This document shows positions 5,651 to 10,460 of a stretch of DNA of 64,000 nucleotides, piece by piece. Within the stretch, counting starts at the first letter, position 1, and every line of letters begins with the position of its first letter. The translations under genes and the position numbers were made by a program. The DNA is from a virus. Location of the stretch: positions 186,001-250,000 of IMG/VR virus record IMGVR_UViG_3300032287_004484; one strand, given 5' to 3'. The notes beneath the pieces were generated by a model. It was given only the letters and a program-made list of their open reading frames with translations, was not told where the DNA came from and made no database searches.

Positions 5651-7249
5651 ATGGAAATTTTTAGTGAATCTTATAAAGCACAAAAAGAAGTAGAAGATAA
5701 ATTATTATCTAAATGGGAACCTGCTCTAGAAGCAGACGGAGGAATAGCAGATGCACACATGGCAAGAACAACCGCTATTCTATTAGAAAACTACATGGGA
5801 CACCTTAAAGCATCTAACCAACTAATAAGTGAATCTGTTACAAGTGGTGACTTTAAAGGGGTTAATCTTGCACTTCTTGGTCTTATCCGAAGAGCAATTC
5901 CCGCACTAGTTGGAGCAGAACTCGTAGGCATCCAAGCAATGCCAACACCTACCTCTCCAATTTTCTACATGAGCTGGAGAAAAGACACTGGTGGAACAGG
6001 AACAACTAAAGGTGGTTCTTCGTACAACGATGAATACTTTGGATATCCTAATGGTGGAGCAGGTCCACTTGGTCAAGCTGATCCATATTACACTTCTCAA
6101 CAACTAAGAAGCGTATTAGTAAAAGAAACACTAGCTACTGGAACAGCTTATGGTATCGTTCTTAATTGGACACCCGTTATTGGATACACAATAAGATTTA
6201 GATTATTAGATGCAAACGGTAGAGTCGTTGGTACATCTTGGATTAACCAAGCAACTCCTACTTCTGGAACAGCTACTGGAGCAAACTCTAGTGGAGTAAC
6301 AGCTTATTCTGGCGGATTAGTAGCAGCTTCTATCACTGTATCTGGAACTTCTGCATCTTACACTAACGCAGCTGGAACTACAGGTACTTCTACAGCTTCT
6401 GTACTATCACCCGTAGTTATCGTTACTACAGCAAGTTCACTAGCTGATGGAGTAAAAATCGTTGTTGATTGGGAATATAACCAAGAATCTAACACTAAAG
6501 CTCCTGATGTTGGTGTTCAAATCGATCAGTTCAACGTGTCTCTCGTAAGAAGAATGTTAAGAGGAAAATTCTCTCTCGATTCTATCACAGATGCACAAGC
6601 ATATCATGGTATTTCTCTCGAAAACGAACTCATGGAAATTATGAAATATGAATTAACCAATGAAATCAACAGAGAAATCATTTCCGACCTTAGATCCATG
6701 GCAGGTATCGCTAACACTTTAGACTACAACTCAAACACTACCTTTAACACTTCTGGAAACTATGATGATTCCTTCAAATTAGTTCTCGATTCCATCAATG
6801 GTCTCGGTGCTGAAATCTTGAATCAGTCTCGTTTAGGAAGAGGTAACTTCGTCGTAGGTAACCCTGTAACTCTAGCATTCTTAGACAGAGTACCTGGTTT
6901 CGTTGGTGCGGGCGTATCTTATGATGGAAAAGGATTAACTTATTCTGGACAAATGGGCAATAGAATTAAATTCTACGCTGATCCACAATACGTTAAAAAT
7001 GAACTACTTGTTGGATATAAAGGACCATCTGCTATCGACACTGGATACATTCATGCTCCATATCTTCCAATTACCGCAACACCTACTCTACTTAACCCAG
7101 AAACTGGTGACCCAAGTAAAATATTTTATACTAGATACGGGAAGACTTACCGTGATTTTGATAAAGACGCTGGTAAATCAACTAACGCTATCTATCGTGG
7201 AGAATATGTATACGGAAGACTCTTTATGCAGAACTTCCCAACAATCTAA
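5651..7249 (+). CDS. 23: major capsid protein, gp23-like
   Basis: 532 residues, close to T4 gp23 (521). The ATG at 5651 follows GGAGGA; the same frame is open further upstream only inside the scaffold gene. The N-terminal 60 residues are a charged delta-like segment, and NQLISESVTSGDF gives a protease site after Glu61 (I-S-E|S), matching T4 gp23 cut after Glu65. The following LIRRAIPALVGAELVGIQAM and the PIFYM segment are typical of gp23. The middle is a Thr/Ser/Gly-rich insertion (about residues 200-270). G+C and codon use are visibly richer than in neighbours, as expected for the most expressed gene. A terminator follows. Confidence 0.93.
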   Translation: MEIFSESYKAQKEVEDKLLSKWEPALEADGGIADAHMARTTAILLENYMGHLKASNQLISESVTSGDFKGVNLALLGLIRRAIPALVGAELVGIQAMPTPTSPIFYMSWRKDTGGTGTTKGGSSYNDEYFGYPNGGAGPLGQADPYYTSQQLRSVLVKETLATGTAYGIVLNWTPVIGYTIRFRLLDANGRVVGTSWINQATPTSGTATGANSSGVTAYSGGLVAASITVSGTSASYTNAAGTTGTSTASVLSPVVIVTTASSLADGVKIVVDWEYNQESNTKAPDVGVQIDQFNVSLVRRMLRGKFSLDSITDAQAYHGISLENELMEIMKYELTNEINREIISDLRSMAGIANTLDYNSNTTFNTSGNYDDSFKLVLDSINGLGAEILNQSRLGRGNFVVGNPVTLAFLDRVPGFVGAGVSYDGKGLTYSGQMGNRIKFYADPQYVKNELLVGYKGPSAIDTGYIHAPYLPITATPTLLNPETGDPSKIFYTRYGKTYRDFDKDAGKSTNAIYRGEYVYGRLFMQNFPTI

Positions 7250-7276
7250 TCTAAAAATTATTTTGTTGAAAAATAG

Positions 7277-7307
7277 AAAAAGAAGGCTCAAAAAGCCTTC
7301 TTTTTTT
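7277..7307 (+). terminator. terminator after the capsid gene
   Basis: A 10-bp stem (AAAGAAGGCT with AGCCTTCTTT, 5-base loop) runs into seven T residues about 30 bases after the capsid stop codon. Confidence 0.9.
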
Positions 7308-7312
7308 ATGTT

Positions 7313-7341
7313 TAGACATCTTTTGAAATAAAAAATAAAAT
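7313..7341 (+). promoter_or_regulatory. promoter for the homing endonuclease gene
   Basis: TAGACA, 17-bp spacer, TAAAAT. The -10 ends five bases before the ATG at 7347 and no Shine-Dalgarno is present, so the transcript is predicted to be leaderless. The inserted gene therefore carries its own promoter. Confidence 0.6.
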
Positions 7342-7346
7342 ATATT

Positions 7347-8555
7347 ATGAATAAATACTATGTATATGCTTTATTAGATGAAAGAAAACCAGGATATTAT
7401 GAATATGAAATAGATGACATAATTATTGAATTTAATTATGAACCTTTTTATATTGGCAAAGGAACTGGTAATCGTATTGCTATTCACGAAAAAAGCGCTA
7501 CTTTTGAATCTAACACTACTATTAAAGATAATAAAATAAGAAAGATTTGGCGTGAAGGCAAAAAAGTGGTAAGAACTAAAGTTTTAGATCATCTTGAAGA
7601 TAATCTTGCTTTTGATTTGGAAATAAAACTAATTAAAATAATAGGTCGAAGAGAATTAGGAGGACCATTAATTAATCTTACAGATGGTGGAGATGGACTT
7701 AAGAATCCTTCTCTAGAAGTAAGAGCAAAAATAAGCGAAGGTTCAAAAAATCGTATAATTTCAGAAGAAACAAGAGAAAAGTTAAGGAATAGTTGGTATA
7801 ATAAACTTTCAAGATTAGAAAAAATTAAATTTTCTAGAGGTATAACTTTAGAAGAAGCACAAGTTATTAATCATGAAATATCTATGAAAGTTGGATCTTA
7901 TAGAAAAGGCACTAAACATTCAGAAGAAACTAAAAGGGCTATGTCACTTCGTCAAAAAGGAGTTCCTAAACCTCCTCGAACTGATGAGCATAAGAAAAAC
8001 TTATCTGCTTCTATGATTGGTAAGTTTGCTGGTGAATTTAATCCAATGTATCAAAAGAATTTTAGGGATAATCGTGTTAATAAATTTGGTGAAATTAAAG
8101 AACAAGAATTAGAGAATGAAAGGATAGATAAGATTAATAAGACGACTAATCAGAAAAAGTTAGATGCTGAGGCTCTTTTTCCAGGTACTCCTTATAATGT
8201 TTATATGCAAGCTTATAATTTATATAATAAAGGTACTTCTTTAGAAGAGTCATTGCGAATCGCAACAGAAAATAATGAAAAGAATAATTGTATTGCTAAA
8301 GAAAATAAGATTAAAAAAGATGTGACTAATTTTTATTCTAAATTAAAGAATGGTACTTTAAATCCTTATAAAAAAGAATTATACGATATATCACTTTTTT
8401 TATTAGGATTAAGAAAGCAAAAAGGGATTAGAGATCCATTAGACGAAGTTAAAGATTTAAATGTTTCTTTAGGTAAAAAATTTCGTAAAGATAAAATTTC
8501 TGAATTACAGCAAATTATTAATTTTTATGGAGTATCTATTGAAGAAAGTTGTTGA
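7347..8555 (+). CDS. GIY-YIG homing endonuclease
   Basis: A 402-residue free-standing GIY-YIG nuclease. The catalytic domain holds YVYALLDERKPG at about residues 5-16 and PFYIGKGTGNR at 33-43 (Tyr, Gly and Arg of the fold), then LINLTDGGDG. After it come three NUMOD3-like DNA-binding modules of the type SEET-x-(E/K)-(K/R)-x-(L/M), at about residues 133, 192 and 212. These enzymes cut a cognate allele lacking the insertion and spread by repair. The gene sits behind the capsid gene terminator with its own promoter and overlaps the next gene by 29 bases. Confidence 0.88.
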   Translation: MNKYYVYALLDERKPGYYEYEIDDIIIEFNYEPFYIGKGTGNRIAIHEKSATFESNTTIKDNKIRKIWREGKKVVRTKVLDHLEDNLAFDLEIKLIKIIGRRELGGPLINLTDGGDGLKNPSLEVRAKISEGSKNRIISEETREKLRNSWYNKLSRLEKIKFSRGITLEEAQVINHEISMKVGSYRKGTKHSEETKRAMSLRQKGVPKPPRTDEHKKNLSASMIGKFAGEFNPMYQKNFRDNRVNKFGEIKEQELENERIDKINKTTNQKKLDAEALFPGTPYNVYMQAYNLYNKGTSLEESLRIATENNEKNNCIAKENKIKKDVTNFYSKLKNGTLNPYKKELYDISLFLLGLRKQKGIRDPLDEVKDLNVSLGKKFRKDKISELQQIINFYGVSIEESC

Positions 8556-9519
8556 GTTTTTAAATAACAGAGGAATTAAACATCGAATTTCTCGAGGTTG
8601 TTATATTACTATTGATAATAAATTTATTTTAACTTTTGATGGAAAAGATTTAAATTCTAATTTAGAAGTAGTTAAGATTGATTTATCTAATGATAGATGG
8701 ATGAGTGTCATTAGTAGATTATGTAAACTCCATATTTCTAAAGATATGATTTCACTTTATCATCAAGTTAAAAAAGAGCCATTTTATTATTATGATCAAT
8801 CTACTTTAATGGATTCTTGGCATAGTATTAATCGAGGTATTCATAATCGTAGTTTTAAGATAATTAAACATTTTCATAAATCTTTAATGGATAGTAGAAA
8901 AAACAAATGTTCTTCACCTAATGAATTTCTTCAAGATAAAAAAAATCTATTCTTTTTAATTAAAAATCGTTTTATTTATTCTAAGACTCTAAATAAAGAA
9001 GTTATTTTAAATTCTTTATCTATTAGTCGTCGATGTCCTATCGTTTCTATTTTTTCACCTCTTTTAGTCAAAGATATTATTAATAAATATGCTCCAGATG
9101 TAAAAACTGTAATTGATCCATTTTCAGGATTTAGTGGTAGAATGTTAGGTTCATTAGCTTTAAATAAAACCTATTTTGGAGGAGATATTAGAGGAGATGT
9201 TATTAATGAAAGTAAAAATATTTTATCTTTTATTAATAAAGATTGTCACTTAGAAGTTTCTGATTTTAAAGATTTTTCTGTTAAAAGTGGTGATTTATTA
9301 TTGACTTGTCCACCTTATAGTGTAACAGAACTATGGAAAGGAGTTACAAGTTATTTTGATGAAGATTATTATATAGATTGGATTTTAAATAATTATAGGT
9401 GTAATAAATATATTTTTATTGTTAAGAATACAAGATATAAAGACAATATAGTAGATACTATTAAAAATGGTTCTTGGACTAAAAGTAATGATCACGAGAA
9501 AATTTTAATTTTTAACTAA
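8527..9519 (+). CDS. amino-DNA methyltransferase-like protein
   Basis: 330 residues. Residues 197-205 are DPFSGFSGR (AdoMet-binding motif I of N4/N6 amino-methyltransferases) and residues 260-264 are TCPPYS, a variant of the catalytic (D/N/S)PP(Y/F) motif. GGDIRGDVI between them fits the acidic residue of motif II. The N-terminal 150 residues are unassigned. The start overlaps the nuclease gene by 29 bases, so the two probably move and are expressed together. The Cys-Pro-Pro-Tyr variant leaves the target base, and even activity, open. Confidence 0.7.
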   Translation: MEYLLKKVVEFLNNRGIKHRISRGCYITIDNKFILTFDGKDLNSNLEVVKIDLSNDRWMSVISRLCKLHISKDMISLYHQVKKEPFYYYDQSTLMDSWHSINRGIHNRSFKIIKHFHKSLMDSRKNKCSSPNEFLQDKKNLFFLIKNRFIYSKTLNKEVILNSLSISRRCPIVSIFSPLLVKDIINKYAPDVKTVIDPFSGFSGRMLGSLALNKTYFGGDIRGDVINESKNILSFINKDCHLEVSDFKDFSVKSGDLLLTCPPYSVTELWKGVTSYFDEDYYIDWILNNYRCNKYIFIVKNTRYKDNIVDTIKNGSWTKSNDHEKILIFN

Positions 9520-9560
9520 ATTGCTTCTAAAATAATAAAATATATTTTAGGAGTGTAAAA

Positions 9561-10460
9561 GTGATTAAATACATATTGATTCTACTTTTATTGTTTTGTA
9601 AGAACGATCAAAAAGAACAAAGATTAAAGGCACAAAAGATTTTTGGTAATATTAAAGTTGAGAATCCAGTTGACCAAAAGAGTATTGATTTAGGTAAGAA
9701 ATTATTTTTTGAAAAAGCTTTATCTATTAATAATACTTTTAGTTGTAATAGTTGTCATGTTATTGATAATTATGGTGTTAGTAATGGAAATGTTAATGTA
9801 GAAATTAGTTCTATTCTTATTAAAAGGAATATACCAACAGTTTATAATTCTAGTTTACAAAATAAACAGGGATGGGATGGTAGATTTAATTCTGTTAAAG
9901 ACATATCTATTAATTCAATATTTGATAAAAATAAATTAGGTATACCAAATCAAAAACATCTAGTTAGTAAATTAAAAAAATTAAGATATGATAATGATTT
10001 TAAAGAAGTTGATTTACCTTTAAATTCTGATAGTGTTGGATTAGTTTTATCTCGTTATATTGATACTTTAGTTGTTAGAACTCGATATGATCAGTGGGTA
10101 GATGGTGAGATCGATTTTAATGATGATGAAATTAGTGGATTTAAATTATTTTATTCTTCTAATTGTCAAAGCTGTCATAGTTCATCTACTTTTGGTGGTA
10201 AGAATCTTGCTAAGGTTGGCATTTTAAAACACTTTGATGTAAAAGATGAAGGTAGATATTATATAACAATGAATGAATCTGATCGTCAAGTTTTTAAAGT
10301 TCCAATGTTAAGAGGAATCACAAAAACTCATCCTTATTTCAGTGATGGATCTGTTAATACATTAGAGGAAGTCATTAAAATAATGGGTGAATATCAGCTA
10401 GGTAAGAATTTTAACGAAAAGCAGATTGATCAGATAAAAACTTTTTTATTGACTTTATAA
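9561..10460 (+). CDS. di-heme cytochrome c peroxidase (CCP/MauG family) lipoprotein
   Basis: Two c-type heme motifs are present: CNSCH at residues 62-66 and CQSCH at 202-206. FKVPMLRGIT with Met249, followed by HPYFSDGSVNTLEEV, is the C-terminal signature of bacterial di-heme cytochrome c peroxidases, which reduce H2O2 in the periplasm. The N-terminus (MIKYILILLLLFCKND) is a short signal peptide with a lipobox-like Cys13. The length (299) is slightly below the usual 320-380, but both heme domains are complete. GTG start; AGGAG seven bases upstream, inside a small hairpin (CTAAAATA with TATTTTAG). Very unusual cargo for a phage; heme attachment would need host cytochrome c maturation. Confidence 0.9.
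   Translation: MIKYILILLLLFCKNDQKEQRLKAQKIFGNIKVENPVDQKSIDLGKKLFFEKALSINNTFSCNSCHVIDNYGVSNGNVNVEISSILIKRNIPTVYNSSLQNKQGWDGRFNSVKDISINSIFDKNKLGIPNQKHLVSKLKKLRYDNDFKEVDLPLNSDSVGLVLSRYIDTLVVRTRYDQWVDGEIDFNDDEISGFKLFYSSNCQSCHSSSTFGGKNLAKVGILKHFDVKDEGRYYITMNESDRQVFKVPMLRGITKTHPYFSDGSVNTLEEVIKIMGEYQLGKNFNEKQIDQIKTFLLTL

Follow-up and report, generated by a model that had tools for sequence, protein, structure and literature searches.

Homing endonucleases generally spare the genome that carries them because the insertion of their own gene, or a sequence difference, removes the target. Here we describe a two-gene cassette in a stretch of 64,000 nucleotides (nt; G000:186001-250000, hereafter the window) of the 290 kb virus record IMGVR_UViG_3300032287_004484, in which the gene of a GIY-YIG homing endonuclease overlaps that of a methyltransferase behind the gene of the major capsid protein, gp23. 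Among the closest described systems, free-standing GIY-YIG/NUMOD3 homing endonucleases of the Seg type resemble the window nuclease in domain make-up and in their place beside a conserved virion gene, whereas the window nuclease gene overlaps a methyltransferase gene; no Seg protein is known whose gene does so. Type II/IIG restriction-modification systems likewise combine a nuclease with an amino-methyltransferase, as a pair or as a single chain, and the window genes are paired by an overlap of 29 bases, but here the nucleases are of the homing type, carry NUMOD3 or DUF7487 modules and lie in viral gene clusters, and a common specificity of the two activities is putative. A further point of comparison is PDB entry 3r3p ('Mobile intron protein'), which we take to be the EDxHD homing endonuclease I-Bth0305I: the nuclease domain of a distant fusion, L007, matches it at 1e-6, but the proteins of the clade described below add a methyltransferase, the window protein has lost five of six conserved nuclease residues, and the nuclease region of the clade matches no PDB sequence. 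Phage ParB-methyltransferase proteins such as phiFL3 gp36 share a distantly related methyltransferase domain, but contain no homing nuclease by Pfam or by the record annotation (ParBc, AdoMet_Mtases).

The nearest paper to a coupling of nuclease and methyltransferase is PMC11855218, whose accessible portion describes the ShiLan element. Like the window cassette, this element brings a homing endonuclease together with a phage methylase, but there an out-of-frame HNH gene lies inside the methylase, whereas here the nuclease is an in-frame fusion or a separate, overlapping gene. A full-text literature search, with most subscription papers outside its reach and a report elsewhere thus possible, found no paper on homing endonuclease-methyltransferase fusions and none on DUF7487. 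In the accessible portions of three other papers, the word 'homing' is absent from PMC7824862, 'methyltransferase' and 'methylase' from PMC12908238, and 'methyltransferase' and 'methylation' from PMC3943268.

The window methyltransferase belongs to a clade in which most of the other proteins also match a nuclease-domain profile. We favour, with belief and doubt evenly poised, the reading that the cassette is a phage homing unit whose methyltransferase is normally fused behind a nuclease, that a separate GIY-YIG enzyme replaced the decayed fused nuclease, and that methylation protects the unit's own site. The cassette and its immediate surroundings comprise the following features, in window coordinates:

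5654..7249, + strand, gene of the T4-type major capsid protein gp23, left neighbour of the cassette (Pfam Gp23 1e-53, PHROG 138 5e-60)
7277..7305, hairpin flanked on either side by A/T runs, probable gp23 terminator (detected by the scan only on the - strand; + strand T-run seen by eye)
7313..7341, + strand, promoter-like match TAGACA-17-TAAAAT (10 of 12 matches)
7347..8555, + strand, GIY-YIG homing endonuclease gene, 402 amino acids (aa; by open reading frame (ORF), Pfam and PHROG)
7356..7658, + strand, GIY-YIG catalytic domain, residues 4-104 (LEM-3_GIY-YIG, 8e-11)
7908..7964, + strand, NUMOD3 DNA-binding motif, residues 188-206 (Pfam)
8527..9519, + strand, methyltransferase gene, 330 aa, in a different frame from the nuclease gene, with which it shares 29 bases
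8527..8721, + strand, residues 1-65, probably what is left of a trimmed nuclease domain (by the order of secondary structure; weak by sequence)
9043..9516, + strand, Rossmann methyltransferase domain, residues 173-330 (66 residues beyond motif IV)
9115..9141, + strand, motif I, DPFSGFSGR (conserved columns in the alignment)
9304..9318, + strand, motif IV, TCPPY (T, second P and Y invariant in 30 rows; C nearly so; first P variable)

A preliminary description of this DNA, made from its letters, had pointed to amino-methyltransferase motifs (DPFSGFSGR, TCPPYS) in the second protein. Both are present, and most of their positions are invariant across 30 aligned rows including the window, namely eight of the nine motif I residues and the T, second P and Y of motif IV; the acidic D220 that follows motif I is likewise invariant. 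Structure prediction gives a Rossmann methyltransferase (mean pLDDT 89), and the window protein thus has the fold and the motifs I and IV expected of a DNA amino-methyltransferase. The Pfam DNA-methylase model N6_N4_Mtase stays below its cut-off (no hit in the first Pfam scan, 13.8 bits against 26.7 in the record-wide search), and the identification rests on motifs, relatives and fold; among the 34 clade relatives, 18 match this family with E values up to 0.01. Database matches of the protein are weak, with the best phage relatives in Lak megaphages (35% over 218 residues). The domain is compact, ending 66 residues after motif IV, which indicates that it has no obvious target-recognition domain. 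Its best fold matches include tRNA and rRNA N-methyltransferases, such as Trm11 and METTL5, and motif IV reads C-S-P-Y in some of the fused relatives, as might be expected if the domain methylated RNA, or only bound DNA for the nuclease without catalysis of its own, and were no target-protecting DNA methyltransferase. We regard this as the least probable of the alternatives, because the residues listed above are invariant in all 30 rows and because DNA-nuclease domains repeatedly accompany the methyltransferase.

The clade was delimited with a pattern that is blind to nucleases, DPFxG[FY]SGRM, which matched 38 viral stretches; with the window, the Lak loci and other earlier loci it comprises 48 ORFs in 47 loci, 35 of them non-identical including the window. 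Among the 34 members other than the window, 22 match an EDxHD/Vsr-like profile, nine a second, PD-(D/E)XK-like profile and three neither. Because the profiles were built from the same groups that were counted, these numbers describe the alignment and are no independent test. The first domain is presumably of the EDxHD type, and its profile matches the L007 domain (hhalign 94%, P 1e-7); for the second type, Pfam gives a weak match in one member (Phage_endo_I, E 0.007). The fusions often carry zinc-finger-like segments and DUF7487 repeats, the latter in 21 of the 34 members. Six nuclease positions (E, D, D, H, D and R) are kept in all 16 aligned EDxHD fusions, which were taken from those at hand. 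The methyltransferase positions are kept in all 17 rows formed by these fusions and the window, except for the first P of motif IV (S in seven) and its C (S in L021). The preliminary description had proposed that nuclease and methylase move as one unit; in support of this, 31 of the 34 other members match a nuclease profile, while the exact pair with a GIY-YIG enzyme was not seen at the other loci inspected, the neighbours there being scanned for nucleases in part. It had also named independent occurrence of the two genes at different loci as the result that would speak against a unit, and what we find goes half way: the methyltransferase occurs without the window's GIY-YIG nuclease, but with other nucleases.

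In a careful tree of 39 rows, made without rows that were too short (L027 among them), the clade is supported at 100/100, the window groups with L025, L022 and L035 at 99/98, and the PD-(D/E)XK fusions form one branch (96/99). Two separate PD-(D/E)XK swaps had been read from a first, quick tree (90 of 153 usable rows after near-copies were removed), and this was dropped because the careful tree gives a single PD-(D/E)XK clade.

Several loci are recorded here as observations in their own right. The pattern's three matches among prokaryotes (a genome collection of 84,980 species) are PD-(D/E)XK-methyltransferase fusions on three contigs, L177, L178 and L179, of one uncultured Treponema metagenome-assembled genome (MAG), perhaps from a huge phage binned with it. 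At L032:2871-4638, an EDxHD-looking nuclease core and the clade methyltransferase are two overlapping ORFs, with the profile match confined to the linker; this arrangement resembles that in the window, and it may be natural or the result of a frameshift. Lak-B2 (L005:3-2716) has, by eye, two divergent EDxHD-looking genes beside a nuclease-less methyltransferase, and in Lak-A1 (L004:5578-6570) a GIY-YIG-looking frame, in which TAG is read as Q, lies about 0.8 kb downstream of the methyltransferase with one frame between them, again by eye.

Recurrent association could also arise if, as in the ShiLan element, the methyltransferase gene served as the target of homing or as the host gene, and nucleases repeatedly invaded methylases; the accessible part of PMC11855218 has HNH and LAGLIDADG insertions in phage methylases, as well as HNH genes upstream of related methylases. 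In the window's clade, however, the nuclease part is N-terminal and in frame in the aligned members except L032, its six positions are kept in every aligned EDxHD fusion, unlike what scattered insertions would give, and Pfam nuclease families are rare in the 103 relatives from outside the clade (among the matches listed). We therefore consider this explanation quite improbable.

These outside relatives come from a control with the pattern GFGGR, which gave 112 ORFs among the matches listed; the 103 of at least 250 aa were scanned for families at a Pfam E of up to 0.001. LAGLIDADG_2 was found in one of them, HNH_3 with NUMOD4 in one, Vsr in one, DUF7487 in three and ParB_N in two. Five of the 103 belong to an L007-like branch with long N-terminal parts, and thus Pfam undercounts fusions somewhat. 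The small number of control fusions nonetheless indicates that nuclease fusion marks certain branches, above all the window's clade. Two distant relatives are in phages of 484-485 kb: in L007, zinc fingers, a NUMOD3 match just below the cut-off and a Vsr domain are fused to the methyltransferase, and L008 has two LAGLIDADG_2 stretches (E 2e-38). L149, outside the clade, is a LAGLIDADG_2 fusion as well. The opposite fusion order was seen at L077:5897-7714, where NUMOD4 and an HNH_3 homing nuclease lie C-terminal of the methyltransferase. Two whole-family alignments were set aside because they were too diverse for scanning.

The clade trait of an active nuclease domain in the same polypeptide is absent from the window, where the nuclease is a separate, overlapping ORF. 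The fused nuclease of this phage has probably decayed to a non-catalytic stub, as judged from the alignment and the structural model. At the six nuclease positions the window protein keeps one D, has substitutions at two and falls into an alignment gap at three. Residues 2-65 are modelled as a helix, four strands and a helix, the same order as in the model of the fused L022 minus one short helix, the L022 model being of low quality up to residue 330 and around residues 380-400. When the window model was compared by VIA, no nuclease was listed, in a list that spans residues 87-330 only. Proof of a decayed nuclease from sequence only was weak in three tests (given below), and the stub is retained only jointly with the match in secondary structure. 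L184, the full ORF of L025, follows a major head gene, with no other ORF of 100 aa or more between the two. It contains a domain homologous to the EDxHD one (54.6 bits, reached by 0 of 1000 shuffles; hhalign 98%) in which EG replaces DG, the H is not aligned and the FD of the core is kept.

As to the nuclease encoded by the overlapping gene, its identity as a GIY-YIG homing endonuclease was confirmed by Pfam (LEM-3_GIY-YIG, E 8e-11, over the cut-off) and by PHROG 314 'homing endonuclease' (E 2e-12). The two reading frames (7347-8555, 402 aa, and 8527-9519, 330 aa) with their 29-base overlap agree with the preliminary description, as does their place directly behind the capsid gene (gp23 at 5654-7249 by Pfam, E 1e-53). 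Two other details of that description fared less well. It had counted three NUMOD3-like modules, of which Pfam gives one (residues 188-206, E 4.8e-6, over the cut-off), the two others being seen by eye. It had also given the nuclease gene its own leaderless promoter, but the 21 promoter-like matches in 7150-9700 are close to the 17.2 +/- 4.4 found in shuffles, and TAGACA-17-TAAAAT is therefore not above chance in AT-rich DNA. By eye, Shine-Dalgarno sequences are absent ahead of both cassette starts. A scan of viral contigs found no close relatives of the GIY-YIG protein, and the 72 phage records that match it do so only in part. Family searches of the whole record (NUMOD3, N6_N4 methylase, GIY-YIG and DUF7487) gave a single NUMOD3 match over the cut-off, in the GIY-YIG gene of the window, and a single, weak N6_N4 methylase match, in the methyltransferase gene beside it; DUF7487 was not found in the 290 kb. 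The sole other GIY-YIG match of the record, a weak one in a frame of 109 aa, lies outside the window at G000:C1:18218-18331.

We compared the DNA behind gp23 in several relatives: L001 (the same contig as L176), L173/L174 (whose frames look alike) and L175. The comparison that had been suggested gave no clean empty site: the cassette is absent behind gp23 in all of these, but other genes are there and the sequences do not realign. Since, on the right side, the relatives share only gp23 and the hairpin with the window, no cassette boundary can be set. In the nearest relative, L001 (gp23 86% identical over 262 residues), an acetyltransferase gene lies behind gp23 and a C5-cytosine DNA methyltransferase gene further on (L001:3778-4767), and in L174 a frame of 418 aa is followed by a protein whose counterpart is at 20.4 kb of the window. 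A hairpin with a T-run behind gp23 was also seen by eye in L001, L174 and L175. The DNA behind gp23 is unrelated in the relatives, and this is thus a cargo zone. At L175:281-901, a different GIY-YIG/NUMOD3 gene lies immediately behind gp23 and its hairpin.

This other cargo, in particular the acetyltransferase and C5 methyltransferase of L001 and the different GIY-YIG gene of L175, is compatible with a passenger or relic, in which a GIY-YIG gene homed behind gp23 and by chance truncated or adjoined a methyltransferase gene (an anti-restriction gene or a decaying fusion), with no cooperation between the two. The long branch of the window protein and the lack of a nuclease-looking neighbour, by eye, at the clade member L025 fit the same explanation. 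However, the methyltransferase positions are kept in an intact ORF, the nuclease profiles are matched by most of the other clade members, and the record's only NUMOD3 match over the cut-off and its only N6_N4-like match are neighbours with overlapping frames. We thus judge a mere passenger unlikely, though it is the alternative that we take most seriously.

A match between flanks was found in 10 of the 34 elements compared, without a shuffle control, and is clear only for the second copy in L017 (139 bp, 86%). There, the 3′ end of the head-tail adaptor gene upstream is present twice (L017:8142-8280 and 10205-10342), once on each side of the second fusion copy, and both duplicates translate to nearly the same protein end. 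Such a duplication would be the kind of scar that insertion leaves; most other elements are without one. The L017 contig also has another fusion, of 72% DNA identity over about 1.1 kb, behind its capsid gene. Upstream ORFs, some on the other strand, were obtained for 24 clade elements, and 18 of these plus L025 were checked by PHROGs, a set that leaves out L004, L005, L016, L027, L032 and L036 and in which some phages may be kin. A major head protein is on the upstream side in 5 of the 19 genes tested (the first copy of L017, L022, L028, L029, and L025 via L192), and the upstream gene of L021 matches a PHROG that window gp23 also matches. The others include a head protease, two head-tail adaptors, a tail sheath, a tail tube and another tail protein, and the remainder are an endolysin, an anaerobic ribonucleotide reductase and five genes without a PHROG match.

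Immediately 3′ of the cassette, at window 9561-10460, is a gene for a di-haem cytochrome c peroxidase (CCP_MauG, 2e-32). Patterns for it matched 0 viral contigs, and its matches in the phage collection number four, of which two are Salmonella draft contigs and two are short records that carry no annotation.

A number of observations weigh against our reading of the cassette as a homing unit. At no other inspected locus is a clade member the immediate neighbour of a GIY-YIG gene (neighbours being only partly scanned for nucleases), and no flanking duplication was found at the window cassette. The window protein sits on a long branch, and an approximately unbiased (AU) test does not reject its placement outside all fusions (p 0.22), so that we do not claim a window nested inside the fusions. 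With the first profile, the score of the stub is near that of the top 1% of shuffles; it is reached by 3 of 1000 shuffles when L025 is added or when the nearest three rows are used alone, and in the hhalign comparison the stub gives 29%, over a linker of 23 columns only. The EDxHD profile also gives weak matches (E 8e-5 and 8e-4) to two relatives of ordinary length outside the clade, indicating that it takes in some shared linker. In L025, the nuclease domain is altered, and inspection by eye of ORFs of 100 aa or more showed no nuclease gene next to it. Finally, motif IV is C-S-P-Y in 7 of the 16 aligned fusions, which makes methyltransferase activity throughout the clade uncertain.

If the cassette is nevertheless a homing unit, cutting in the window phage would be done by the GIY-YIG/NUMOD3 enzyme of the overlapping upstream gene, as a replacement in trans for the fused nuclease. 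When a related phage infects the same cell, this enzyme would cut its DNA at a site within or close to the capsid gene, and the cassette would be copied in during repair. The methyltransferase, sharing the target of the nuclease, would mark that site and near-matches to it on the carrier DNA and so prevent cutting there; this protection of the nuclease's own target is the putative role that we favour. The target of such a homing nuclease would then not have to be destroyed or recoded. In a fusion, both activities could be guided by the zinc-finger-like and DUF7487 parts, while for the window methyltransferase the address would have to come from the GIY-YIG protein. More broadly, and with a confidence that falls somewhat short of even, we propose that phage homing endonucleases may repeatedly have been armed with a methyltransferase that has no target-recognition domain of its own and borrows the DNA-binding modules of the nuclease, so that one address would serve to cut rivals and to mark self, with nuclease folds (EDxHD, PD-(D/E)XK, LAGLIDADG, HNH, and GIY-YIG in trans) swapped around related methyltransferases.

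The relatives of this methyltransferase, which are mostly fused to nucleases, suggest from their sequences that selfish homing genes may carry their own protective mark. If this is true, a homing nuclease with a methyltransferase in its own protein or operon would avoid self-harm in a different way, and a phage could keep a conserved site that can be cut, for instance in the region of the capsid gene. The clade would then be a protein family that joins homing-type DNA-binding modules to a base-modifying enzyme. Such modification-protected homing would form a bridge from selfish homing genes to restriction-modification systems, and would provide a concrete route by which the two could turn into each other.

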